Below are positions 1 through 10,672 of a DNA stretch of 64,000 bases, in pieces. The DNA is taken from NCBI RefSeq assembly GCF_001428685.1, contig NZ_LMIK01000001.1, positions 104,550 through 168,549 of the forward strand. Direction: 5' to 3'. How positions within the stretch are numbered: the stretch's first letter is position 1; each line of letters opens with the position of its first letter. The notes beneath the pieces were generated by a model. The model ran no database searches. It was given only the letters and a program-made list of their open reading frames with translations, and was not told where the DNA came from. The position numbers were made by a program, and so were the translations under genes. Origin of the DNA: Lysobacter sp. Root76. Its GTDB lineage: Bacteria; Pseudomonadota; Gammaproteobacteria; Xanthomonadales; Xanthomonadaceae.

Positions 1-3000
1 CCGGCCGAACTCAGGCGATGGCTGCTGCCGGGATAGGTGAACGCGGTGGTGATGCCGCCGTGCAGCAGGCTGGTGCGGTTGCCGGTGGCGTCGTAGGTAT
101 AGGTCTCGATCGGCGTACTACTCGGGCCGTCGCGCAGGATGGTCAGGCGGCCGAGGTTGTCGTAGTCGTAGCGCGACAGAAACGCGCTTTGCAGGCCGTC
201 CTTGAGTTCGGTCAACTGACCGGCGTGGTCGTAGCCGTAATGCAGCGACAGGCCGCCGCTGGCGTTGTCCTGGATCGTCTGGACGCGGTAGTCCAAGTCG
301 TGGCTACGCGACAGGCTGCGGCCGTTACCGTAGGTCCAGCCGACCGCGGGGCCGAACGGGGCGTAGCCGGCCTGGTTGAGCAGCACGGTGCGGCTGCCGC
401 CGTTCGGCGTGACGCCGACCTCGGTGATGCGGCCCAGGGCGTTGCGCACGTAGTCGACCAACGCGCCATCCGGGTAGGTCACGGCCTGCAGATCACCCGC
501 TGCGGTGTAGGCATAGCTCACCGCGAAAAGTTGGCCGCCGATCAACTGCGTCTTACGCGTGACCTGACCGAAGCGGTTGTAGCAGTAGCGCTGTTGCACG
601 CCAAAGCGGCTGGAGCCGGTCAGGCGCCCTTGCGCGAAGCCCTCACCCGCGCCGCAAATGGCGTTGACAGTGTCGTACTGGTAGACGATGTCGTTGCCGC
701 CGCTGGTGGCCAGCATCGACACCGAGGTCAGCCGATTGAGCGCGTCGTAGTCGTAGGTGTGCGCCTGGCTGTCGTTGGCGTCGAGGCGGCTGTCGAGGTT
801 GCCGGCGCTGTCGTAGCCGTACTGGGTCAGGCCGGTGTCGGGGCTGGTAAGCGCGGTGACGTCGCCGAAGCCGTTGTAGGCGTAGCCGGTGTTCAAACCC
901 TTGGGATCGGTGACCTGGGTGACCTGATCCAGGGCGTCGTACTGGTACAGGGTTTCGGCGGCGATGCCGCCCGGGTCCTGGACGGTGCGCGAGACGCGGT
1001 TGAGCGGGTCGAAGTCGTGGTCGACCACACGGCTGAGCGGGTCGGTGACCAAGTTGGGGTTGCCGTCGGCGTCATAGGTGGTGCCGGTGATGTGGTTGCC
1101 GGCATCCTTGTGCTGCGTCTGCTCGCCCAGGCTGTTGAAGGCGCGGCCGAGCTGGCGGCGCAGCACGGCGCCGCTGTCCTTGGTTTCTTCCTGGGTGCGG
1201 TTGCCGGCGGCGTCCAGGGTGTAGTGAATGGTGTTGCCGGCGTTGTCGGCGACGTCGGTCAGGCGCTGGGCGGCGTCGTAGGTGAACACGACATAGCGGC
1301 CGTCGGGCTGGGTCAGGCGCTGGACCAGGCCGGTGGGCTCGTAGATCGCGGAGGTGATCCGGTCATCCGTCTCGCTGCCGGCGTTGGGGCCGCGGACCTT
1401 GGTGGCGGTCAGCCAGCCGCGCGGGTGGTACTCGTAGTCGGTGACGACGTCGGACATGTCCTTGACCGACAGCACACGGCCCTGGGCGTCGTACTGCAGC
1501 ACTTCGGTGACCTGCCCCAGCGCGTTGGTGGTCTTCCACAGGTCGCCCTTGCGGTGCGGGCAAGTGGCGGGGGCGGACGCGCAGCCGGCGTCGTCGCTGG
1601 GGTAATAGGCGTAGGTCGTGACGTCGCTGACATCGGTGCGCGGGCCGTCGATGGACTTGAGCAGGCCCAGCAGCGGGCAGGTGCTGTTGCTGGCGGCGAC
1701 GTCGGCGGCTTCGCAGTAGGCGTAGGCCGTGGTGCGGGTGGCGTTATTGCTGGTGTCGCGCACCGTGACCGAGGTCGGTTGCTGGCGTGCGTTACGGGTG
1801 ATGCGGGTTTCGCGATTGCCGACCAACGTCATCAGCACGCGGTTGGTCGCCAGCTCGGTGCGCTGCTCGGTGGTGCGCGCCTGCGCGGTGCCCTGGGCCT
1901 CGGTGACGGTGTGCTTGCGCACGGTCAGGCCGGACGGCGTGTCGGTGAGTTCGGCGTACTCGTGCTTGGTCACCGTGCCGTTGCGGTCGGTGACGGTGTC
2001 GAGGCGGCGGCGGAAGTCGGTGGACTCGGGGTAGTAGGTGTAGCTGAGGGTAGTGGCGCCGTTGTTGACGGAGGCGACCTTCTTCGGGGCGCCGCTGGGC
2101 GGGGCTGCGGTGAAGGTGTAGGTGTTGGTGCGCTGGAGTGGATTGGTGACGGTGGCCGTGCCCGAGGGGTCGTAGTCCAGCAAGGTCGGGGCGCCCACCA
2201 GATCGCCGCGCACGCTGTAGTCCGCACGCGCCTTGGCGTCGTAGTCGTAGGTGCTCAGACGGCGGTTGTCTTCGGCCGTGATGCCGGTGAGCAGTGCCGG
2301 GAACGACGCCGATGCGTAGTGGTAACGCAGCTGTGCGCCGCCGCTGTAGGTCGCCGTCTCGACCTGCCCGGCCGCGGTATAGGCATAGCTCGCCAGCACG
2401 GTGCCGGCGGAACTGATCGACGCGACCGGCGCATTGCCCTTGTTCGAGGCGTAGGCGAAATCGAGCGTGCGCCCGCTGCTGTGGGTCAGCGTGGTCAACC
2501 GCTGCAGGCTGTCGTAGGCATAGCTCAGCGTGGAGCCGTCGTCGTAGCGCTGCTGCAGCAGGCGGCCGTCGGCATCGAAGCTCAGCACGCGGTCGGCGCG
2601 GTACAGCGTCCACTGCGCGCCGGCGGCGACCAGACGATCGCCGCTGCCATCGCTGGCCTCGTAGGCCGCGCCCACAGGCTTGAACGGCGTGTGCACCCCG
2701 TTCTCGTCGACCAGACCGTAGTGCAAGGTCGAATTGCCGCTGAGCGGATCGGTGCCGATGGTCAGACGGATGTTGTGCGAGTGCGTCCAACCGTTGCCGA
2801 AGCCGCCGCCCGCGGACGAACCGGTGGAGTTGTAGCGGCGCTGGAACGACACCCAGCCCAGGTCGAAGTCGCGCGTGGCCTCGGTCTTGTTACCGCTGCC
2901 CGGCTGGCAGTCCTCTTCGTTCGGGCACATGCGCACCGGCGCGCTGGCATAGGTCATCTCCGACCCAGGCACGCCGGCGCAGGCCTGCTTGGCCGCGCTC

Positions 3001-3617
3001 CAGGCATGCACGGTGATGTTCGGGCACTGGATCGAACGGTTGCGCAAGATCGAGCCGTTCTCGTTCGTACTGGTGCAATTGCCGGGCGAGCCGACCGCAT
3101 AGCTGGCCGTGTAGGCGGTGTTCTCGTTCAGGCTCTGCCCATTGTCCCAACTGCTGTCCACCTGCCAGTTCGGCGACACGGTCACGACGGTGGACGCCGG
3201 GCAGCCCTGCCCCACGCTTTCCGCATCCAGGCGCTGCGTGATCTGGTCCACGACCATCTGCAAGGTCGCGTTCGGCTGCTGCGGGTCGAGCAGGGTGTGA
3301 TGGCTCCACTCGCCTACTACCGGCGGCACGCGTTCGAACTCGTACTGGTAGATCGTGCGGTCGTCCAGCACGGTCTGCTGGGTCACTTCGAAACTGAAGG
3401 GGCCATAGGGCAGCGAGAAATCATGCAGGCTTTCCATGTCCTGCTGCACGGCGCGCTCGGTGGCGTGCGGGCCGTTGAACGCCCAGTCGCTGACCCAGAC
3501 CTGCCCGATTTCCTGCGCCGAGGCGGCGCCAGCCAGCAGCGACAAACACCCGAGTGCGACGGCCGCCCAGCGCGTACGCGCGGCGGTGCGGTGGCGGTTC
3601 AATCCTTCGTAACCCAT
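1..3617 (-). CDS. Secreted RHS/YD-repeat protein, C-terminus outside window
   Basis: The frame is open from the ATG at 3617 to the left edge, giving at least 1205 residues; the C-terminus, where RHS proteins carry their variable effector tip, is not visible. Residues 1-34 form a Sec-type signal peptide (basic start, hydrophobic core, cut near ASA-Q). A segment FDLGWVSFQRRYNST follows, typical of the region before the repeats, then many YD repeats such as YDSLQRLTTL, YDADGNPNLV and YDALNRLTSV, which build the hollow RHS shell in characterised family members. The start is supported by AAAAAGGGGA just upstream. A signal peptide suggests envelope or secreted placement rather than T6SS loading, but this is inference. 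The toxin or other tip domain and any immunity gene would lie left of position 1. Confidence 0.9.
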   Translation of the reverse strand, partial: MGYEGLNRHRTAARTRWAAVALGCLSLLAGAASAQEIGQVWVSDWAFNGPHATERAVQQDMESLHDFSLPYGPFSFEVTQQTVLDDRTIYQYEFERVPPVVGEWSHHTLLDPQQPNATLQMVVDQITQRLDAESVGQGCPASTVVTVSPNWQVDSSWDNGQSLNENTAYTASYAVGSPGNCTSTNENGSILRNRSIQCPNITVHAWSAAKQACAGVPGSEMTYASAPVRMCPNEEDCQPGSGNKTEATRDFDLGWVSFQRRYNSTGSSAGGGFGNGWTHSHNIRLTIGTDPLSGNSTLHYGLVDENGVHTPFKPVGAAYEASDGSGDRLVAAGAQWTLYRADRVLSFDADGRLLQQRYDDGSTLSYAYDSLQRLTTLTHSSGRTLDFAYASNKGNAPVASISSAGTVLASYAYTAAGQVETATYSGGAQLRYHYASASFPALLTGITAEDNRRLSTYDYDAKARADYSVRGDLVGAPTLLDYDPSGTATVTNPLQRTNTYTFTAAPPSGAPKKVASVNNGATTLSYTYYPESTDFRRRLDTVTDRNGTVTKHEYAELTDTPSGLTVRKHTVTEAQGTAQARTTEQRTELATNRVLMTLVGNRETRITRNARQQPTSVTVRDTSNNATRTTAYAYCEAADVAASNSTCPLLGLLKSIDGPRTDVSDVTTYAYYPSDDAGCASAPATCPHRKGDLWKTTNALGQVTEVLQYDAQGRVLSVKDMSDVVTDYEYHPRGWLTATKVRGPNAGSETDDRITSAIYEPTGLVQRLTQPDGRYVVFTYDAAQRLTDVADNAGNTIHYTLDAAGNRTQEETKDSGAVLRRQLGRAFNSLGEQTQHKDAGNHITGTTYDADGNPNLVTDPLSRVVDHDFDPLNRVSRTVQDPGGIAAETLYQYDALDQVTQVTDPKGLNTGYAYNGFGDVTALTSPDTGLTQYGYDSAGNLDSRLDANDSQAHTYDYDALNRLTSVSMLATSGGNDIVYQYDTVNAICGAGEGFAQGRLTGSSRFGVQQRYCYNRFGQVTRKTQLIGGQLFAVSYAYTAAGDLQAVTYPDGALVDYVRNALGRITEVGVTPNGGSRTVLLNQAGYAPFGPAVGWTYGNGRSLSRSHDLDYRVQTIQDNASGGLSLHYGYDHAGQLTELKDGLQSAFLSRYDYDNLGRLTILRDGPSSTPIETYTYDATGNRTSLLHGGITTAFTYPGSSHRLSSA

Positions 3618-3991
3618 ACCATCCCCTTTTTCGAGTTGTCTGCGCCGGCCTAGCGGACGGCGCGGGTGTTGCCTACGTACGGCACCGGGCCGCACGCACG
3701 AATGCATTACACGACGACCCCGTCGCCCGGACTGCGACAGGTTGAGCGCGAAATCGGACAGCGCCGAGACAGGCGCACGACGGACGCGCGACCCGCGGCG
3801 AATCGTTGCGATGGGGCCGACGGCGAACGGCCGGCCGATCCACATTCCATATGCATCACTGCTTTGCTCCCCTGTGGGCTGCAGCGGTTCCTTGCGTCGC
3901 CGCGGACGGAAGAGTCCGGGAGCGACGTGGGGCCAGCTTCAAGGAGCACCGACTGCGCCGTCAAGTGCCGCGCCCAAGCTTCGAACCTGCT
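3618..3991. other. Intergenic region without a supported gene
   Basis: About 370 bases between the RHS start and the last small frame of the accessory segment. The only open frames are short, mutually overlapping and lack ribosome sites. The SD-like AAGGGGA for the RHS gene lies at the left end. No tRNA, attachment-site copy or clear terminator was recognised. The left edge of the accessory segment probably falls somewhere here. Confidence 0.5.
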
Positions 3992-4213
3992 TTAAGTGTG
4001 CCGGCAGGCGTCGGGGCGCCCGGCATCGCAAACGACAGTTGCGCCGATACGTGCGTGGCAAATAACGACGATGCGATGTCCGTTGTCGTCCGGTTCGCGC
4101 CCCACAAAGGTGGCTGCGCCAATTGCCGCATCCAACGCACCAGAGAACGCGACCGTTTGCGGCAACTCCGAACCTCGATCCCCAATGCCTGAGAGCCGTG
4201 TAAGCAGTCGCAT
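3992..4213 (-). CDS. Small hypothetical protein (73 aa) coupled to capsid-like gene
   Basis: The ATG at 4213 overlaps the TAA of the upstream 310-residue gene as TAATG, a usual arrangement for translational coupling. The 73-residue product starts MRLLTRLSGIGDRGSE and has no signal peptide, membrane segment or motif I recognise. Codon use resembles the neighbouring accessory gene more than the host genes. Support is mainly positional; other frames are also open across this stretch, so it could be spurious. Confidence 0.35.
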   Translation of the reverse strand: MRLLTRLSGIGDRGSELPQTVAFSGALDAAIGAATFVGREPDDNGHRIVVICHARIGATVVCDAGRPDACRHT

Positions 4214-5145
4214 TAGGCGACGATCCAGAACTTATTCGGATCATTGACGATTGGCAGCATGCTCGCCCAAGCGATGACTGAGAGGTTGCCGGCATTGCCG
4301 ATGCGCTCGAACATGACAGTCACGTCATCTTTCACAACAACCGAGGCGCGGTTGAATGCACCTGCAATGGTTCCTGCCATATCAGCGGTAAGTTCCGCAG
4401 GAACGCCGGATGCGCGGAGAACACCATCGTGGGCAATCGCGGCGCCCGCGCCGCTTGTCAGAGCGCGAAGGTCGCCAACCATGAGCCCCTCAGCAGCTGC
4501 CTTGCCGAGCGTGAAAGGTGACAGCGACATGCCGCTTAGAGCGGACAACAGGACTTCATCGGCCGCGCGCGCCAGGCCCAGCGTTATCGTCGCCAGCACC
4601 TGCGCGCAAAGCTCGTCGGGGTTCGAATATTTGCGACGGTCGCTGCGCGAAATTTCGAAGCGGACCGCTTTTGCGACCCCTAGATTCCAATCAATAGCCG
4701 ACGACTGGATCGGGAGCGGTGTAGTCGGCACAGTCCCTCCCTCCTCGACGTCTACTGTGGAGAAAACGGCGAGTTCGATGCTCCGAACATGGCCTGGCAC
4801 ATGCTCCAGCGCCACTTGTCCCGTCTTGCCGACTGCGTGCGCCTTTGTGGCTTCCGGATAGATGACGATATGGGCGCCTGCATTCGCGACGCGGGAGTTC
4901 GCAATAACGACCGAATCAAGTCGGATCTCGTCACTTGAAGGCGCGGCGTTCGGCGTGCGACGAAGTCGACCGTCTTTGTCGAAGAGCCCCGTAAGGCTAT
5001 CTGTGCTCAGGCACATGAGAGCAGAGCGAGCAGCCGAAGTCGGGATGTAAACCGTTGGCTCCTGCATTCCTACAGGGGTATGGGCACGGAACGCCTGAGC
5101 GGTCGTGGCCTCGGCCATCAAATTGCGAATCTTTTCCTGCAGCAT
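4213..5145 (-). CDS. Putative phage major-capsid-like protein (HK97-fold style)
   Basis: The 310-residue product has no signal peptide. Its layout resembles HK97-type major capsid proteins: an N-terminal helical stretch, a central part with GVAKAVRFEISRSDRRKY followed by an amphipathic helix (PDELCAQVLATITLGLARAADE), then an Ala/Gly-rich segment and a beta-rich C-terminus (VVVKDDVTVMFERIGNAGN ... ASMLPIVNDPNKFWIV). The length suits a small capsid protein. This is a fold impression from sequence pattern, not a firm family match. No portal, terminase, protease or tail gene is nearby, so if it is a capsid protein it is isolated, as in a satellite or remnant. The start ATG has only a weak GAGACC upstream. 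GC is lower than in flanking host genes. Confidence 0.5.
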   Translation of the reverse strand: MLQEKIRNLMAEATTAQAFRAHTPVGMQEPTVYIPTSAARSALMCLSTDSLTGLFDKDGRLRRTPNAAPSSDEIRLDSVVIANSRVANAGAHIVIYPEATKAHAVGKTGQVALEHVPGHVRSIELAVFSTVDVEEGGTVPTTPLPIQSSAIDWNLGVAKAVRFEISRSDRRKYSNPDELCAQVLATITLGLARAADEVLLSALSGMSLSPFTLGKAAAEGLMVGDLRALTSGAGAAIAHDGVLRASGVPAELTADMAGTIAGAFNRASVVVKDDVTVMFERIGNAGNLSVIAWASMLPIVNDPNKFWIVA

Positions 5146-5157
5146 TGGTATCAGGTC

Positions 5158-5322
5158 TCAAGTGGTGTGGCGGTAACCGCCGTCCGGGTAATGGCTTGCG
5201 AGCCATGCTTCCTTTGCCGCTCGCAACCCTTCCCAGCTCGATCCCGAGTACACAAGGTGCCGACTGCCATCAGGCGCAATCATCGTGTAGTGGATTTCCA
5301 AGGCTGAGGACTCGTCGTGCAT
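5158..5322 (-). CDS. Small hypothetical protein (54 aa)
   Basis: A 54-codon frame, ATG at 5322 and TGA at 5158-5160, sits 12 bases upstream of the capsid-like gene on the same strand. The product begins MHDESSALEIHYTMIAPDGS and ends YPDGGYRHTT; it is polar, with a predicted beta hairpin then a helix (WEGLRAAKEAWLAS). The compact, soluble-looking composition and tight spacing argue for a real gene. There is no good Shine-Dalgarno sequence, and an in-frame TGA lies a short way upstream, so no longer form is possible. Function unknown. Confidence 0.4.
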   Translation of the reverse strand: MHDESSALEIHYTMIAPDGSRHLVYSGSSWEGLRAAKEAWLASHYPDGGYRHTT

Positions 5323-5375
5323 GCGGGGCTCTGGGCGGCTCTGTGGGGCAAATCTTCGGCGTCAATTGCTGCCGC

Positions 5376-5434
5376 TTCCATTGCCGAAATGTCCGCCATG
5401 CAGGGAGCCCATTCCATTGGCGGAATGTCCGCCA
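5376..5434 (+). repeat. Two direct 23-bp repeats, family TTCCATTGssGrAATGTCCG
   Basis: Copies at 5376-5398 and 5412-5434, both ending CGCCA, match at 21 of 23 bases with starts 36 bp apart. Each carries a partial internal palindrome (TTCCattggcGGAA in the second). Related copies occur at 8022-8039 (minus) and 8441-8460 (plus), so this is a family confined to the accessory segment. They lie between the divergent minus-strand capsid-like group and the plus-strand HEPN gene, a fitting place for operators. Confidence 0.7.
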
Positions 5435-5500
5435 GAGCCAGGAGAGGTCCTCTCGATGGGGTTCATGGACTGATGGCTGGCCTCTCGGCTAAGGCGGTAG

Positions 5501-6400
5501 ATGGCCGACAGAAACAACAAACCCATTTTTGACGGGCACGCACAATGCGAACTAGGCGGTGTCGCCGACCCCACAGGCCTACCCCGCCAGGGAAGGACCC
5601 AGGCATCATGGGTACGGGCAATCGGTGATGGATCAGGAATGAATATCGACGACCTAAAGACCCACAAGTTCGTTACTGAGTGCTGGAACGACTCAATGGG
5701 CATGCGGCGCAAGCATAAGGAGCTCGGCATCGACCCGATGTCAGACAGCGTTAATGAACTTGAGTTCTATACATATCGAGTGGGTCACGCCCTGGCGCAC
5801 CTATTAACCTGGATCGAACAGCTCCAAGAGGCACCGACTTACCTCGCAGACTTCAACTACTCTGGGAAAGCCCGGAAGAGCGGCATCACCAGAGCACGGT
5901 ATCTCCTATACACCGTGGAAAACTACCTAATTCGCCTGCAGTCGATATACGACAGATGCTTGCAGCTAACGAATTGCGTATTCCACCTTTGCATTGAAGA
6001 CTCGAACGTCGGGCATTCCCTGGTTGTCAGCAACCTGCAGGTATCCCGGACTGACATTCCGTCGCACCTAAAGCGAGTCAGGAAGGCTGTTGCCGGAAAG
6101 CAGAGCGATAGGAACAAGATCGTTCACCAGGCTTCCTACCAAGAAAAGGAGCTTGACCGCCTGCTTCTCTTCTACATCTACGACGAGTCAACCTGGGACG
6201 AAGCTCAGTCGGGCACCCCATTCAAGAACCTGGCAATCATGCGGAGCCAACTGCTGCGCAAGGTTGTCGCGGAAAAGCGCAGTGAATTCGAGGCAATTAA
6301 TACTGAACTGTTCGAAGCCATTGGGCTCCTGCTCGACAAGTTTCTTCCGCACTATCGAAAGCACGTAAAAAAGGTGTCCACTTATGTTTCCGCCACCTAG
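5501..6400 (+). CDS. HEPN-domain protein (Cthe_2314-like), putative RNase
   Basis: The 299-residue product is strongly helical. Near its C-terminal third it carries RNKIVH (R204, H209), the Rx4H motif of HEPN proteins, followed by QASYQEKELDRLLLF, a layout like the Cthe_2314-type HEPN family. HEPN proteins are often metal-independent RNases in toxin-antitoxin or anti-phage systems; RNase activity here is inference. The ATG at 5501 has AAGGCGG about 6 bases upstream; a second candidate ATG at 5639 begins MNIDDLKTHK. It is the only plus-strand gene in the segment and uses many A/T-ending codons (ATA, TTA, AAT), unlike host genes, which points to horizontal transfer. No obvious MNT-type or other antitoxin partner is adjacent. 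Confidence 0.65.
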   Translation: MADRNNKPIFDGHAQCELGGVADPTGLPRQGRTQASWVRAIGDGSGMNIDDLKTHKFVTECWNDSMGMRRKHKELGIDPMSDSVNELEFYTYRVGHALAHLLTWIEQLQEAPTYLADFNYSGKARKSGITRARYLLYTVENYLIRLQSIYDRCLQLTNCVFHLCIEDSNVGHSLVVSNLQVSRTDIPSHLKRVRKAVAGKQSDRNKIVHQASYQEKELDRLLLFYIYDESTWDEAQSGTPFKNLAIMRSQLLRKVVAEKRSEFEAINTELFEAIGLLLDKFLPHYRKHVKKVSTYVSAT

Positions 6401-6438
6401 ACGCTCAGTCCCTATGTCCCGACCGCTTTAGTCCGTCC

Positions 6439-6519
6439 GTCCGGTTGCCTATAGGCAAACCGGACAAACCGGACACGACAAATCGGGAAAACCGGACGTA
6501 AACCGGACTCAAACCGGAC
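6439..6519. repeat. Iteron-like array: five AAACCGGAC nonamers plus inverted copy
   Basis: Exact AAACCGGAC occurs at 6457-6465, 6466-6474, 6489-6497, 6500-6508 and 6511-6519. The last three start 11 bp apart, about one helical turn. An inverted, nearly complete copy (GTCCGGTT, 6439-6446) and the spacer GCCTATAGGC make a palindrome with the first nonamer. The array abuts and slightly enters the 3' end of the RepA-like helicase gene, whose last codons CGT CCG GTT TGA are part of the final repeat. Directly repeated sites beside a replication gene are the usual form of a plasmid or phage replication origin; a terminator or operator role for the palindrome is also possible. Confidence 0.7.
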
Positions 6520-7726
6520 GCTCGTCGACCAGGCTGACGTAATCACCAAACTCGATGTCGATGCGGCCGGCGTCCTTGAGTGTGTTCCGCAGGTCATAGA
6601 AGCGCTTTCTGTCTACGCCGTTCTCGGCTAGACGATCCCGCCATTCTTCAAGCTTCACGCGGGCCGCATTAGCGTCAAACCCTCCGCGCTCTAGCCTGGC
6701 GCGGCGCTCGTCAAATAGTTCCGCCAGGATTGAAAGCGCGAGAGTTTGATTCCGGCCGCGCCCAGTCTTTCCTGCCTTAGCTGGCGCGACATGGGGCACA
6801 CTCCAAAGAGCCGCGCTTGTGATGGGCTTTCCCTCGTCATCGGTTAGCCCATCAAGGGTCACCGTTTCCAGCTTGAAAGCCAGCGGCGCGGGCTGCTCAG
6901 CGTCCTTCATCTTGGTGGCGTCGATCCGCACGACGCCAGATTCGTCCTTCGTGAGGGCGTATTCCGCGTCCAAAGCGCCTTTAAGTGCCGTGCTACCGCG
7001 CGCCCTCGATTTGTCGGCGTGGCCGGAGTGGTGAACGATCAGAACGGTGGCTCGCCATTTCGCCCTAAGGAACGCATCCAGGTTTGCGATGAACGACCCC
7101 ATGTCTTGCGCGCTGTTCTCGTCGGCGCCGCCGAAGTTGCGGGCTAGAGTGTCAATGACGATTAGCGCTGGCTTGTGACCCGTCACAGCTTCCAGCCCCC
7201 CAACCGCGTTGGCGACCTCTGCCGCCGCTGCTGCACTGCAAAGCTGAGCCGGACGCTGGCTAACGAACAGTGGTGCCCCGGCCAGGGGAATGCTGTTGTG
7301 CTGCGACCAAGCGACAAAACGACGGGCTAGGCCGTTCTGACCCTCGCCAGCGATGTAGAAAACCGCGCCCTGCGTGGTTTTGTTGCCATGCCAGGATGTT
7401 CCGGTCGCAATACAACAGGCCAGGTCGATCGCGGCAAACGACTTGCCGCAACCAGGATCGCCGAACATAAGCGCCAGCGAGTCAGCTTCGACATAGTTGC
7501 GAACTAACCAGGCGACCGGCTTTAGCCCGTCGCCGATCATGTCCCCAATCAGCGTGAACCCGAAGCCAGCCGCCGGCTTGTCTACTACCGGCGGCCGGAC
7601 TTGCGGTAGATGCGGCGCAGCCAATTTCGCAAGCCGCGACGCTCGCTGCTCGTTCAAGTGTCGAAAATATGCTTGCCACTGAGGGACATTCTCCGTGAGC
7701 GTGTACTCACCTGGGGTAGCCGTCAC
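6509..7726 (-). CDS. RepA-like AAA/RecA-fold replicative helicase
   Basis: The GTG at 7726 overlaps the TGA of the upstream gene (GTGA), giving 405 residues; an upstream in-frame ATG at 7825 would overlap that gene by about 100 bases and is less likely. Walker A is GDPGCGKS (89-96), Walker B ALIVIDT (187-193), followed by VHHSGH (231-236) and RARGSTALKGALD (241-253). This set is typical of hexameric RepA-type helicases of the RSF1010 kind and of the AAA ATPases common in small phages and satellites. The C-terminal 100 residues look like a winged-helix region (RKRFYDLRNTLKDAGRI). It likely unwinds the element's DNA at the adjacent iteron array; no primase domain was seen. It closes a three-gene operon starting with the AlpA-like gene. 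Confidence 0.8.
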   Translation of the reverse strand: MTATPGEYTLTENVPQWQAYFRHLNEQRASRLAKLAAPHLPQVRPPVVDKPAAGFGFTLIGDMIGDGLKPVAWLVRNYVEADSLALMFGDPGCGKSFAAIDLACCIATGTSWHGNKTTQGAVFYIAGEGQNGLARRFVAWSQHNSIPLAGAPLFVSQRPAQLCSAAAAAEVANAVGGLEAVTGHKPALIVIDTLARNFGGADENSAQDMGSFIANLDAFLRAKWRATVLIVHHSGHADKSRARGSTALKGALDAEYALTKDESGVVRIDATKMKDAEQPAPLAFKLETVTLDGLTDDEGKPITSAALWSVPHVAPAKAGKTGRGRNQTLALSILAELFDERRARLERGGFDANAARVKLEEWRDRLAENGVDRKRFYDLRNTLKDAGRIDIEFGDYVSLVDERPV

Positions 7727-8130
7727 CGCTGAAGCTCCATTGCATCCAGCACCATGCGAACTGCATCCAGCTCGTTGAACTCGAATGGAGGCGGGCAATT
7801 CGGCAACATGGCGAAGCGTTCCCATTGCCGAGCCATATGCCGCGTGTGGGCGAACACGTCGTCAACGGACATTTCTCGCAGCCCTGCCCGCACCGTTCGC
7901 CAGGCCGCTTCCATCCTGCGCGCCTCCAGAGCGCCGAGTGTCAGCTGCCTATCTCGCCAGCGGGGTGCTATCACCAAGCGACTAAGGAATCGATGCTCGA
8001 TGCGGAATGGTCGAAGCGGAAGCGGACATTTCCGCAATGACGCGCTTGCCAACTGCTCCCTAGCATTGGCGTCGCTCTCGGTGTTTTCCTTGGCCCCGGC
8101 CCCCAAGCCGGGGCTTTTCTTTGTCCTCAC
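7723..8130 (-). CDS. Hypothetical protein (135 aa) in helicase operon
   Basis: The GTG at 8130 overlaps the TGA of the upstream regulator gene by four bases, and its own stop overlaps the helicase GTG the same way, so three genes are chained by GTGA junctions. The C-terminal 75 residues (from about MEAAWRTVRAGLREMSVDD) look helical and soluble, with HMARQWERFAML and a conserved-looking acidic end. The N-terminal 30 codons cover a plus-strand terminator-like hairpin and read as low-complexity, so translation may begin at a downstream start. No family recognised. Confidence 0.55.
   Translation of the reverse strand: MRTKKSPGLGAGAKENTESDANAREQLASASLRKCPLPLRPFRIEHRFLSRLVIAPRWRDRQLTLGALEARRMEAAWRTVRAGLREMSVDDVFAHTRHMARQWERFAMLPNCPPPFEFNELDAVRMVLDAMELQR
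8022..8039 (-). repeat. Third copy of the CATTGssGrAATGTCCG repeat
   Basis: Read on the minus strand, this 18-base stretch is CATTGCGGAAATGTCCGC, one mismatch from the core of the copy at 5376-5398. It lies inside the 135-residue gene of the helicase operon. Confidence 0.55.
8093..8122 (+). terminator. Terminator-like hairpin facing against the helicase operon
   Basis: GCCCCGGC (8093-8100), loop CCCCAA, GCCGGGGC (8107-8114), then TTTTCTTT on the plus strand. The shape is that of a Rho-independent terminator for plus-strand transcription, yet it lies inside the first codons of a minus-strand gene. It might stop antisense transcripts, or be a chance GC-rich hairpin. Confidence 0.45.
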
Positions 8131-8372
8131 GCGGCCACCCCCTCGCGGTCGGCAGTACGTGCGCGGTAGGAAACAGGTTTGCCGGCTTTGCTGCGGGACT
8201 CCAGGAAGTCGACCCATGCCGACACAGCGGCGGGACGCGCGAAGCGCCGGCGGCCCACCAGGAAGGTTTCCAGATGGCCGGCGTTGATAGCGTCATGAAT
8301 AAGCGGAAGGCTTTCGCCAGTAAGGTCGGCGATTGCTCGAAGCGACAGCTTGAATGGTTCCATTCGCTGCAT
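8127..8372 (-). CDS. AlpA/excisionase-like helix-turn-helix protein
   Basis: An 81-residue protein with a MerR/AlpA-type layout: a helix-turn-helix (LRAIADLTGESLPLIHDAIN), then GHLETFLVGRRRFARPA, the wing typical of DNA-reading excisionase and prophage regulators, and a basic tail. Such proteins act as recombination directionality factors or as activators of integrase or replication genes in satellites. It is the first gene of the helicase operon, with a 4-base overlap to the next. A second ATG at 8363 (MEPFKLSL) is an equally good start. The palindrome GCGATATATCGC lies 15 bases upstream and may be its own operator. Confidence 0.7.
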   Translation of the reverse strand: MQRMEPFKLSLRAIADLTGESLPLIHDAINAGHLETFLVGRRRFARPAAVSAWVDFLESRSKAGKPVSYRARTADREGVAA

Positions 8373-8386
8373 ACGGGTAGACCCTT

Positions 8387-8398
8387 GCGATATATCGC
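8387..8398. promoter_or_regulatory. Palindrome GCGATATATCGC upstream of AlpA-like gene
   Basis: A perfect 12-bp AT-centred palindrome, 15 bases before the ATG at 8372, in an otherwise GC-rich setting. It also contains TATAT, close to a -10 element on the minus strand. Likely an operator or promoter core of the helicase operon; not tested. Confidence 0.45.
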
Positions 8399-8440
8399 GA
8401 TAGTTGCGACAGGGTCAGTTTCAGCACTGCCGCAGAAGGG

Positions 8441-8460
8441 TTCCATTGCAGGAATGTCCG
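8441..8460 (+). repeat. Fourth copy of the TTCCATTG..GGAATGTCCG repeat
   Basis: TTCCATTGCAGGAATGTCCG, matching the core of the copies at 5376-5434. It lies about 70 bases upstream of the AlpA-like start and near the right end of the accessory segment, so copies flank the interior genes. Confidence 0.6.
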
Positions 8461-8570
8461 GACGTCGAAGGCGCGCTTTGGCAGGAAGGCTCTTAGCCGC
8501 GCACCTCTCGCAAGCGGATCGATCTGGGTTTCCGTACATGCATCCGTACGCGGCAGATCTCAGGGCGGCA

Positions 8571-8603
8571 GAAAAGAAAAAACCCCTGATAAATCAGGGG
8601 TTT
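8571..8603 (-). terminator. Rho-independent terminator of ssrA
   Basis: An 11-bp perfect stem (8580-8590 with 8593-8603; ATCAGGGGTTT arms) followed on the minus strand by TTTTCTTTTC. It begins 5 bases after the tmRNA CCA end. Confidence 0.9.
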
Positions 8604-8607
8604 GTAT

Positions 8608-8961
8608 TGGTGGAGGTGGGGGGAATTGAACCCCCGTCCGAAGGCACTCCATCCCCGGCACTACATGCTTAGCGCTCCGTTAGATCTCGCCCCCGGACAG
8701 CACGGCGCGCAAAGCGCATCCGGGAACCAGCCTGTTTTGGGTTGACCAGGGATTGACAGGCAACCGTCCCCAGCGATTCCGTGATGATGACCCTACGCTG
8801 CGAGCACGGACACAAGCAGTTTCGGGGCTTACGCCTTAAGCGGCGAGAGCGTAGTTGTCGTCGTTGGCAACTAAAAGTTTGCAGCTGGATTTACGAGGAA
8901 AGCTACCCCCTCGGCATGCGCCAAGCGATTTTGCAACCCCCGTCGAAGCCAGTGCACCCCC
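8608..8961 (-). ncRNA. ssrA: Transfer-messenger RNA (tmRNA)
   Basis: A 354-base one-piece tmRNA. The 5' end GGGGGTGCACTGGCTTCGAC and 3' end CACCTCC-A-CCA pair into the acceptor stem, and the T-arm GGGGGTTCAATTCCCCC is intact. The tag frame at 8868-8836 reads GCC AAC GAC GAC AAC TAC GCT CTC GCC GCT TAA, giving ANDDNYALAA, which ends in the hydrophobic/Ala-Ala degron read by ClpXP. tmRNA with SmpB rescues ribosomes stalled on broken mRNAs. The 3' end is a common target for integrating elements, and the accessory segment lies directly downstream, but no second copy of the 3' end was found. Confidence 0.97.
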
Positions 8962-10174: not shown

Positions 10175-10184
10175 GTCTGCTTCC

Positions 10185-10208
10185 TGTGGGAGCGGCGTAA
10201 GCCGCGAT
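10185..10208 (+). repeat. REP element, single copy
   Basis: GGGAGCGGCGTAAGCCGCGA, the imperfect palindrome of the REP family found elsewhere in the window, placed 11 bases after the nitronate monooxygenase stop and inverted relative to the tandem array that follows. Confidence 0.8.
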
Positions 10209-10365
10209 TGCGTGGCCGCGGACAGCGCTAGTCTCCGATCGCTGCTGTCGACATTCTTTTGTGCTATCGCTGCAGAGCAGTTCGCGCGCTTTTCATTGTC
10301 GCGGGGGAAAGGCGACGCGTCGATTTTGGCGGGTCTGGCGCGCTTCGAGAGTTGCGATGCAGGTG

Positions 10366-10647
10366 CGGGGTCGCGATCGCGGCTTACGCCGCTCCCACAG
10401 GGTGCTTGGGAAGGTGCGGCGTTGGTGGGGGTCGCGGTCGCGGCTTACGCCGCTCCTACAGGGTGCTTTGGGGAGGTGCGTCGTTGGTGGGGGGCGCGAT
10501 CGCGGCTTACGCCGCTCCTACAGGGTGCTTTGGGGAGGTGCGTCGTTGGTGGGGGTCGCGGTCGCGGCTTACGCCGCTCCTACAGGGTGCTTTGGGAGGT
10601 GCGGCGTTGGTGGGGGTTTGTGGTCGCGGCTTACGCCGCTCCTACCC
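10366..10647. repeat. Tandem array of five 62-bp REP-containing units
   Basis: The core CGCGGCTTACGCCGCTC starts at 10378, 10439, 10501, 10563 and 10625, a period of 61-62 bp. The linker (GGGTGCTTTGGGGAGGTGCG and variants) is conserved as well, so this is a true tandem duplication. Each core folds into a short imperfect hairpin. It fills the space between the nitronate monooxygenase and lhr, which are convergent, where REP arrays often act as transcript stabilisers or terminators. Confidence 0.9.
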
Positions 10648-10672
10648 CGGGGCGCGAAATGGGGGTGAAGGC

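Follow-up and report, generated by a model that had tools for sequence, protein, structure and literature searches.

Examination of a 64,000-nucleotide stretch of the Lysobacter sp. Root76 genome (contig NZ_LMIK01000001.1, positions 104,550 to 168,549 of the forward strand; henceforth the window) reveals, near its left end, a compact set of genes that we interpret as a truncated phage satellite lying against the ssrA gene. The guanine-plus-cytosine (GC) content is 0.52-0.64 across 4000-8600, as against 0.64-0.70 in the left flank and 0.66-0.76 in the right flank. An earlier sequence-only reading had delimited such a lower-GC segment at 3992-8540; the segment is real, but its limits are better set at about 4003-4048 on the left and at 8608 on the right. 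Three minus-strand genes are chained by GTGA overlaps, as that reading had recognized. They encode an AlpA-like helix-turn-helix (HTH) regulator of 81 amino acids (aa; 8127-8372), an unknown protein of 135 aa with a GTG start (7723-8130) and a RepA-like AAA_25 helicase of 405 aa, also with a GTG start (6509-7726; PF13481, E=6e-40, with a match to phrog_2850). The AlpA-like protein is 80% identical to a regulator adjoining an integrase in L017 (6527-6808), one of nine relatives from the same bacterial family that were mapped (L015-L023), and matches HTH_17 weakly (E=0.12, below the cut-off). Pfam, PHROG and PADLOC scans assigned the 135-aa protein to no family; genes of 114-138 aa occupy its place in L017, L020, L021, L022 and L023. 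The helicase is 59% identical to its counterpart in L017 and 49% to that in L019. A probable replication origin (6439-6519) combines a 27-bp palindromic site (6439-6465; 92.6% identity to L017) with five AAACCGGAC repeats at 6457-6519, where 0.41 would be expected in the window, so that the iteron-like repeats noted earlier stand. Thus, both an AlpA/MerR-type regulator and what appears to be its own replication module with origin (AAA_25 RepA, iterons and the L017-conserved palindrome), features of the Gram-negative phage-inducible chromosomal islands (PICIs), are found in the element.

Also on the minus strand, a frame at 4213-5145 encodes a 310-aa protein that is likely, though not proven, to be a homologue of the HK97-type capsid proteins. 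This assignment derives from its relatives, since the frame has no Pfam or PHROG match of its own; it shows 36-44% blastp identity to homologues in nine family relatives and 30-31% to plasmid copies. A profile of its family found no match in the PDB, and direct searches of IMG/VR and of the genome collection with the window protein returned nothing. The homologues in L017 and L019 are fused to an N-terminal prohead protease (Peptidase_S78, E=1e-4 in L017 and E=0.006, below the cut-off, in L019; E<1e-43 for the fusion against the PHROG 'major head and protease'), and the L017 protease shares 47-56% identity with the corresponding protease part in capsid proteins of the Xanthomonas FoX phages, Arya, Alexa and Mica. 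Alignment of a profile of 18 satellite capsids with one of 26 capsids from FoX/Arya/Alexa/Mica-type phages covered 172 columns near the C-terminus with a score of 34.6, which none of 200 column shuffles reached (maximum 22.6; reversed profile 17.1). The phages whose capsids align with the satellite domain are contractile, of about 42 kb and of the Foxunavirus/Jilinvirus type. Of the small frames that the sequence-only reading had placed with its capsid-like gene, the one at 3992-4213 (minus strand) is a truncated version of a gene of about 125 aa that follows the capsid gene in relatives (39% to the L016/L015 homologues), and the 54-aa frame before the capsid gene (5158-5322, minus strand) is doubtful, with no homologue found in Pfam, PHROG or the relatives.

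A lambda-type cos packaging site lies at 5526-5601 on the minus strand. A profile built from eight copies (seven satellites and the phage ECO1230-10), with the window left out, recovers it as the sole match in 64 kb (E=1.1e-12). The same profile finds the sites of L080, L084, L012, L020 and L019 and that at the joined ends of the FoX2 phage genome (E=0.0025); it does not find lambda, and a strict fixed-spacing pattern gave no match where the profile succeeded. The window site is 73% identical over 64 bp to the ECO1230-10 site immediately upstream of the gene for the small terminase subunit (TerS), and its resemblance to lambda (GGGTCCTTTCC and the following bases) was seen in an alignment of database records; the names cosQ and cosN follow the usage in the available part of PMC6092414. 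A match of 5537-5601 to L017 had been entertained as a TerS remnant and was dropped when the ECO1230-10 comparison revealed a cos site, and with it went the idea that the HEPN gene described below sits inside TerS. A packaging site or TerS is a further feature of Gram-negative PICIs; here it is the cos site that is present, the window having no TerS homologue.

The most frequently repeated 12-mers of FoX2 constitute one box, GGAAATTCCGGACATGG, at five places: at the end of the gene for the large terminase subunit (TerL), within the capsid gene past the protease, ahead of gpW, ahead of the sheath gene, and within the gene for the late activator. In ECO1230-10 another box, with the core GACAAACCCCA, recurs at the five corresponding places (its Orf13 being called sheath by position), and we infer that both are late-promoter boxes. 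A matrix made from the five FoX2 sites alone ranks 8442-8460, upstream of alpA, and 5413-5431 and 5377-5395, upstream of the capsid operon, as the three top positions of the window. All three are on the minus strand, point along the transcription of alpA or the capsid operon and score 15.9, a value reached at none of 742,416 background positions from 20 host stretches. The FoX2 boxes were first noticed while scanning phages with the satellite motif, so that the matrix test was not fully blind; independently, they are the top-repeated 12-mers of FoX2. A box-like motif in the opposite orientation inside the 135-aa gene (8023-8039, plus strand) falls outside the 14 best matches of the matrix, and L017 has such a motif at a like place. 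Among the relatives, FoX2-type boxes occur before both alpA and the capsid gene in L016, before the capsid gene in L020, at the alpA start in L019 and, as a single copy, just inside the frame called capsid in L023; L017, L021 and L022 have weaker ones only. The ECO1230-10 box is found with zero mismatches in L012, L079 and L084, beginning 79 nucleotides before the capsid start. A separate sequence, ACAATSATTGT, is repeated at six places in ECO1230-10, one of them just before the tail chaperone and tape measure genes, and also stands at L084:11136 and L012:7286, ahead of the small genes that precede the tape measure gene of the satellites.

On the right, the element directly adjoins the end, at 8608, of ssrA (the tmRNA gene; 8608-8961, minus strand, by ARAGORN), a common island site and the apparent integration target, which is present in all 20 genus genomes. 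The element-side attachment (att) sequence (8531-8607, minus strand) comprises a terminator-like hairpin, CCCCTGATTTATCAGGGG, and two GTACGGA repeats, AATACAAACCCCTGATTTATCAGGGG standing with these repeats after ssrA. A similar layout is seen beside ssrA in relatives: with two GTACGGA repeats in L016 (Stenotrophomonas sp. HITSZ_GD), with one GTACGGA and one TACGGA in L056/L057, and in part (hairpin and one GTACGGA) in L048. The three closest relatives (L045, L046 and L047; ssrA 95-97% identical) have different DNA downstream of ssrA and no such att sequence; three bases near the end of the window ssrA differ from theirs, two of them compensating. In L016, 8.5 kb are enclosed, between positions 3545 and 12027, by direct repeats of 13 nucleotides that copy the end of ssrA. 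Fixed synteny in all related chromosomes, which the sequence-only reading had set against mobility, is not seen: the capsid gene occurs in one of 20 genus genomes and one of 369 genomes of the class sample, both times that of Root76 itself. As separate observations around this site, satellite-related integrases adjoin ssrA in two further genus genomes (L054 and L059) and are absent within the 18.5 kb looked at in L056/L057, which have the similar att-side sequence; a second copy of the last 32 ssrA bases, 88% identical, at G015:C1:4843194-4843225 may be the att site of an island at another place in that genome.

The left end is of a different nature. In the 73-aa frame at 3992-4213, resemblance to the relatives stops at about 4048, as read from the protein alignment, and DNA upstream of an RHS gene is common to the genus genome G013 up to window position 4003 and to G012 up to 3989. 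Because the two homologies end in this way, a rearrangement between 4003 and 4048 probably cut the satellite and joined it to the RHS locus. Counting that of Root76 itself, five of the 20 genus genomes have matches to the RHS-upstream region; those of G010 and G013 are on the same contig as ssrA but far from it, and those of G012 and G018 mainly on contigs other than that of ssrA. The RHS-repeat gene itself occupies 1-3845 on the minus strand (PF05593, E=3e-46), and a 1211-aa plus-strand frame across it (18-3653) is probably spurious. The parts listed by the sequence-only reading are thus present, but it had overlooked the ssrA gene, the cos site, the box repeats and the truncation of the frame at 3992-4213.

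Between the origin and cos, in what appears to be a cargo slot, a plus-strand gene (5639-6400) encodes a HEPN protein of the Cthe_2314-like type (PF18730, HEPN_Cthe2314, E=1.2e-8), which has 253 aa if translation begins at 5639, the likelier start; the HEPN gene reported earlier on the opposite strand was correctly identified. Its RNKIVH sequence is an Rx4H motif. The same slot in L016 holds a HEPN_Swt1/DUF5343 pair corresponding to the PADLOC candidate defence systems PDC-M34B and M34A. The available part of the paper on Tai systems (PMC11364771) places PICI immune genes in an accessory region downstream of pri, which the position of the window slot fits. These observations raise the prospect that the locus is a domesticated anti-phage device, no longer mobile, in which the boxes, the capsid gene and the HEPN gene are kept for infection-triggered capsid poisoning and HEPN defence. 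The frames for alpA, the 135-aa protein, repA, HEPN and the capsid are all open and the boxes and cos are well preserved, as would be anticipated, along with the L016 pair and the location of PICI immune genes; however, the window HEPN protein matches no PADLOC model, selection is not measurable on a single copy, and the decay may simply be recent. Hence, we regard domestication as an unlikely alternative, though the strongest of those weighed here.

At E<=1e-3, capsid homologues are encoded by 11 of the 297 genomes of the family (counting that of Root76 and one weak match with a stop, L011) and, by profile, by 11 of 395, Root76 again counted. The enterobacterial-type capsid is encoded in 65 of 5426 complete E. 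coli genomes (one locus inspected), and homologues occur in five enterobacterial plasmid records. In IMG/VR, the capsids of the relatives retrieved three close enterobacterial-type contigs; several queries found none and one found 30 contigs matching mainly the protease part (L112, to residue 308 of 550). Mapping of the nine family relatives (L011 was dropped and G669 left out) shows a plan shared in parts, namely an integrase, an AlpA-like gene, a replication gene, the capsid gene and the gene of about 125 aa, cos also belonging to the fuller plan of the relatives, to which some add TerS and a tape measure gene of about 770 aa. The replication gene is of the AAA_25 type in L015, L017, L019 and L022 and large and primase-like in L020, L021 and L023, and ARAGORN places a tRNA or tmRNA gene close to the element in six of these relatives, L016 and L019-L023. 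L084 (NZ_CP083701.1, 4728-14213) is a complete-looking E. coli satellite of about 9.5 kb between yhdJ and fis, annotated in the order integrase, HTH, VapE, hypothetical (the capsid homologue), TerS and tape measure. The satellite type also occurs as circular enterobacterial plasmid records of about 9 kb in which no integrase is annotated (L012, L013 and L014), and the 17.4-kb plasmid record CP077066.1 looks like a tandem dimer.

An integrase at one end, another feature of Gram-negative PICIs, is missing from the window stretch. As the sequence-only reading had stated, no integrase, portal or terminase is visible there, either in the scanned frames (Pfam, PHROG) or by homology search. Open integrase frames above the Pfam cut-off are present in six of the nine relatives (L015, L017, L019, L021, L022 and L023), with one below the cut-off in L020 (E=2.5e-5), and a broken one in L016, while the L018 locus is cut by a contig end; the absence from the window therefore looks like a loss and not a property of the class.

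To examine the link with helper phages, 49 proteins picked from the 137 annotated coding sequences of FoX2 and ECO1230-10 were searched against 15 satellite stretches. Ten matched at least one stretch and 39 none, both TerL and both portal proteins being among the latter, whereas TerL and portal match in five of five phage-like IMG/VR contigs used as controls; the search was by homology to these two phages and would miss more distant proteins. TerS, major capsid protein (MCP), tape measure and primase match from both phages, and gpI and the late activator from FoX2 alone; the MCP matches are to L017 and L019 only, in the protease part, gpI matches L019, and the late activator L020 and L023. 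By this homology, tape measure genes are present in nine and TerS genes in seven of the 15 stretches, the window having neither. The E. coli-type tape measure protein is 53-61% identical to those of Jilinvirus-type phages (best 13 of 500 records); the L015 protein shares 43-53% identity, across 63-87% of its length, with those of PPpW-3, Alexa, Persinger, MQ-4 and Mano, and 32-33% with those of the FoX phages. The available part of PMC11990801 describes Jilinviruses as small-genome myoviruses of uncertain lifestyle.

These distributions bear on two further explanations. The capsid gene, cos and boxes are all phage parts, and might be what remains of an ordinary HK97-type prophage, once full-length, after the loss of most of its genes; but the same small set recurs, in E. 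coli and in the family, as units of about 9 kb with integrase, AlpA and replication genes and without a TerL or portal homologue, and also as plasmids of about 9 kb, while the capsids of the window and L079 are unmatched in 50,697 phage records, making such an origin highly improbable. Alternatively, the locus might be a small integrative replicon or the remnant of a plasmid, having no connection with phages and using its capsid-like protein in some other role. This would accord with the plasmid-like RepA and iterons and with the relatives found as circular plasmid records; yet the window cos and the TerS, tape measure and protease fusion of the relatives indicate phage packaging, and we consider this the least probable explanation of all.

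At the sequence level, the locus carries satellite genes, an iteron replication module, a helper-type cos, a homologue of capsid proteins and, ahead of alpA and of the capsid operon, boxes that match those of helper-type phages. Together these observations suggest, with a probability that we put at roughly 0.85, that it is a truncated, immobile phage satellite of PICI-like type, inserted at the ssrA 3' end and of a kind that a helper phage in its late phase would activate and package from cos. Induction and packaging by a helper, as in the Gram-negative PICIs, are suggested by the boxes and cos alone. The phage satellite reading proposed earlier thus holds in kind, through the satellite relatives, the cos, the helper-type boxes and a capsid shared with elements of about 9 kb, but the accompanying statement that the combination of parts matches no nameable element class does not, the element being PICI-like. 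The helper would be a contractile, cos-packaging phage of about 42 kb, of the Foxunavirus/Jilinvirus kind. In its late phase, its activator would act on the boxes and switch on alpA and the capsid operon; AlpA would then promote excision and RepA replication of the circle, the helper large terminase would package from cos, and a small head would be built on the helper portal and tail from satellite capsid protein, with or without admixture of that of the helper, some relatives also supplying TerS and the tape measure protein. Both the box function and the particle assembly are conjectured. As the integrase, the tape measure gene and the second att site have been lost, the window copy presumably cannot excise by itself, but its capsid protein, if expressed on infection, could still disturb helper head assembly.

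Several observations weigh against the satellite interpretation. For the capsid domain hhalign itself gives a probability of only 14.5%, whatever the outcome of the shuffles, and an AlphaFold model of the capsid protein (from five sequences) reached a mean predicted local distance difference test score (pLDDT) of 33 and was not used. L015 has no FoX2-type box upstream of capsid or alpA, and the ECO1230-10 box is absent, at up to two mismatches, from L013, L014, L078 and L080. The cos profile misses L021, L022 and L079 (0.56) and reaches just E=0.034 in L018. None of the 49 phage proteins matches the window stretch, and the L015 tape measure protein, used to look for a relocated remainder of the satellite, is unmatched in the Root76 genome, an empty answer that shows little. 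Of the att sites that bound a Gram-negative PICI at both ends, the one on the ssrA side is present; a second copy of the ssrA end or att sequence was not found in this genome at up to three mismatches, nor was a convincing one with shorter cores in the surrounding 84 kb. Finally, three genus genomes (L055, L062 and L063) share the compensating ssrA T-arm pair without having the att sequence; for this reason the T-arm changes were dropped as a mark of integration, and it is the att-side sequence, and not the ssrA bases, that we take as evidence of it.

With regard to known systems, the element, known here from sequence alone, would work like a Gram-negative PICI, or like SaPIbov5, with a capsid homologue of its own. 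An AlpA-type regulator, a replication gene and cos-type packaging are shared with the Gram-negative PICIs EcCICFT073 and PmCI172 as presented in the available part of PMC6092414, where PmCI172 is reported to carry a major capsid homologue, small heads on contractile tails were seen, and a helper phage raises alpA expression. Differences from these are the lack of an integrase in the window copy and, among the relatives, the presence of a tape measure gene in some and of a fused prohead protease in two; further, no description of helper-type boxes ahead of alpA and capsid was found for Gram-negative PICIs in that part of the paper. SaPIbov5 with Ccm, according to the available part of PMC8569155, is likewise a satellite of the cos type, and its single capsid homologue, which has the HK97 fold, redirects the assembly of helper capsids, Ccm alone forming no capsids and replacing helper pentamers. 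The likeness is one of description, the host being different and the tape measure described there being that of the helper. Capsid-forming PICIs (cfPICIs; available part of PMC10690885) similarly encode their capsid protein, and TerS in some relatives and protease in two are reminiscent of them. In contrast, portal, head-tail joining and large terminase homologues of FoX2 and ECO1230-10 are absent from the 15 stretches (controls five of five each), and since no portal, connector or TerL homologue was found we do not class the element as a cfPICI. Small size, AlpA and a replication gene recall the phage-inducible chromosomal minimalist islands (PICMIs; available part of PMC10803314), as does the E. 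coli relative at fis with its VapE-type gene, but PICMIs are described there as being without capsid-remodelling or identifiable packaging genes. Whereas they have int, alpA and prim at fis and no capsid genes, the window element lies at ssrA and has a capsid-like gene and an AAA_25 protein, not a primase. In the helper-satellite pair AH14a/AH14b, the satellite is described in the available part of PMC4936722 as being without structural genes.

Beyond this single locus, the relatives might represent a lineage of minimal satellites extending from Xanthomonas-type bacteria to E. coli, which the late activator of the helper itself would switch on via copied late boxes before alpA and the capsid operon, and whose chimeric particles would combine satellite capsid, TerS and tape measure with the portal, tail and large terminase of the helper; the window copy would then act as an infection-triggered capsid-poisoning trap. 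We offer this fuller scenario tentatively, and judge it rather less likely to be correct than not. In their available parts, the 2018 PICI paper (PMC6092414) did not identify the phage factor that induces alpA, and the means by which a helper turns on the early regulon is a question raised in the PICMI paper (PMC10803314), although later work may have moved on in both cases. For the present lineage, copies of helper-type boxes before alpA and capsid could provide a concrete, testable answer on satellite activation. The presence of a tape measure gene in satellites suggests possible action on the helper tail too; in the open-access literature, so far as available, satellites with capsid and tape measure genes, or acting on the tail, were not found described. 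Given that relatives live in E. coli and that phages with a close tape measure protein (HeidiAbel/Bas97, 60%) are in culture, the lineage should be testable in laboratory strains. An earlier survey of satellites may already include some of these elements among the PICIs. To the right of the element, window positions 10179-10655 consist of repeat units of about 62 bases that have matches near ssrA in several genus genomes and perhaps represent a dispersed repeat.

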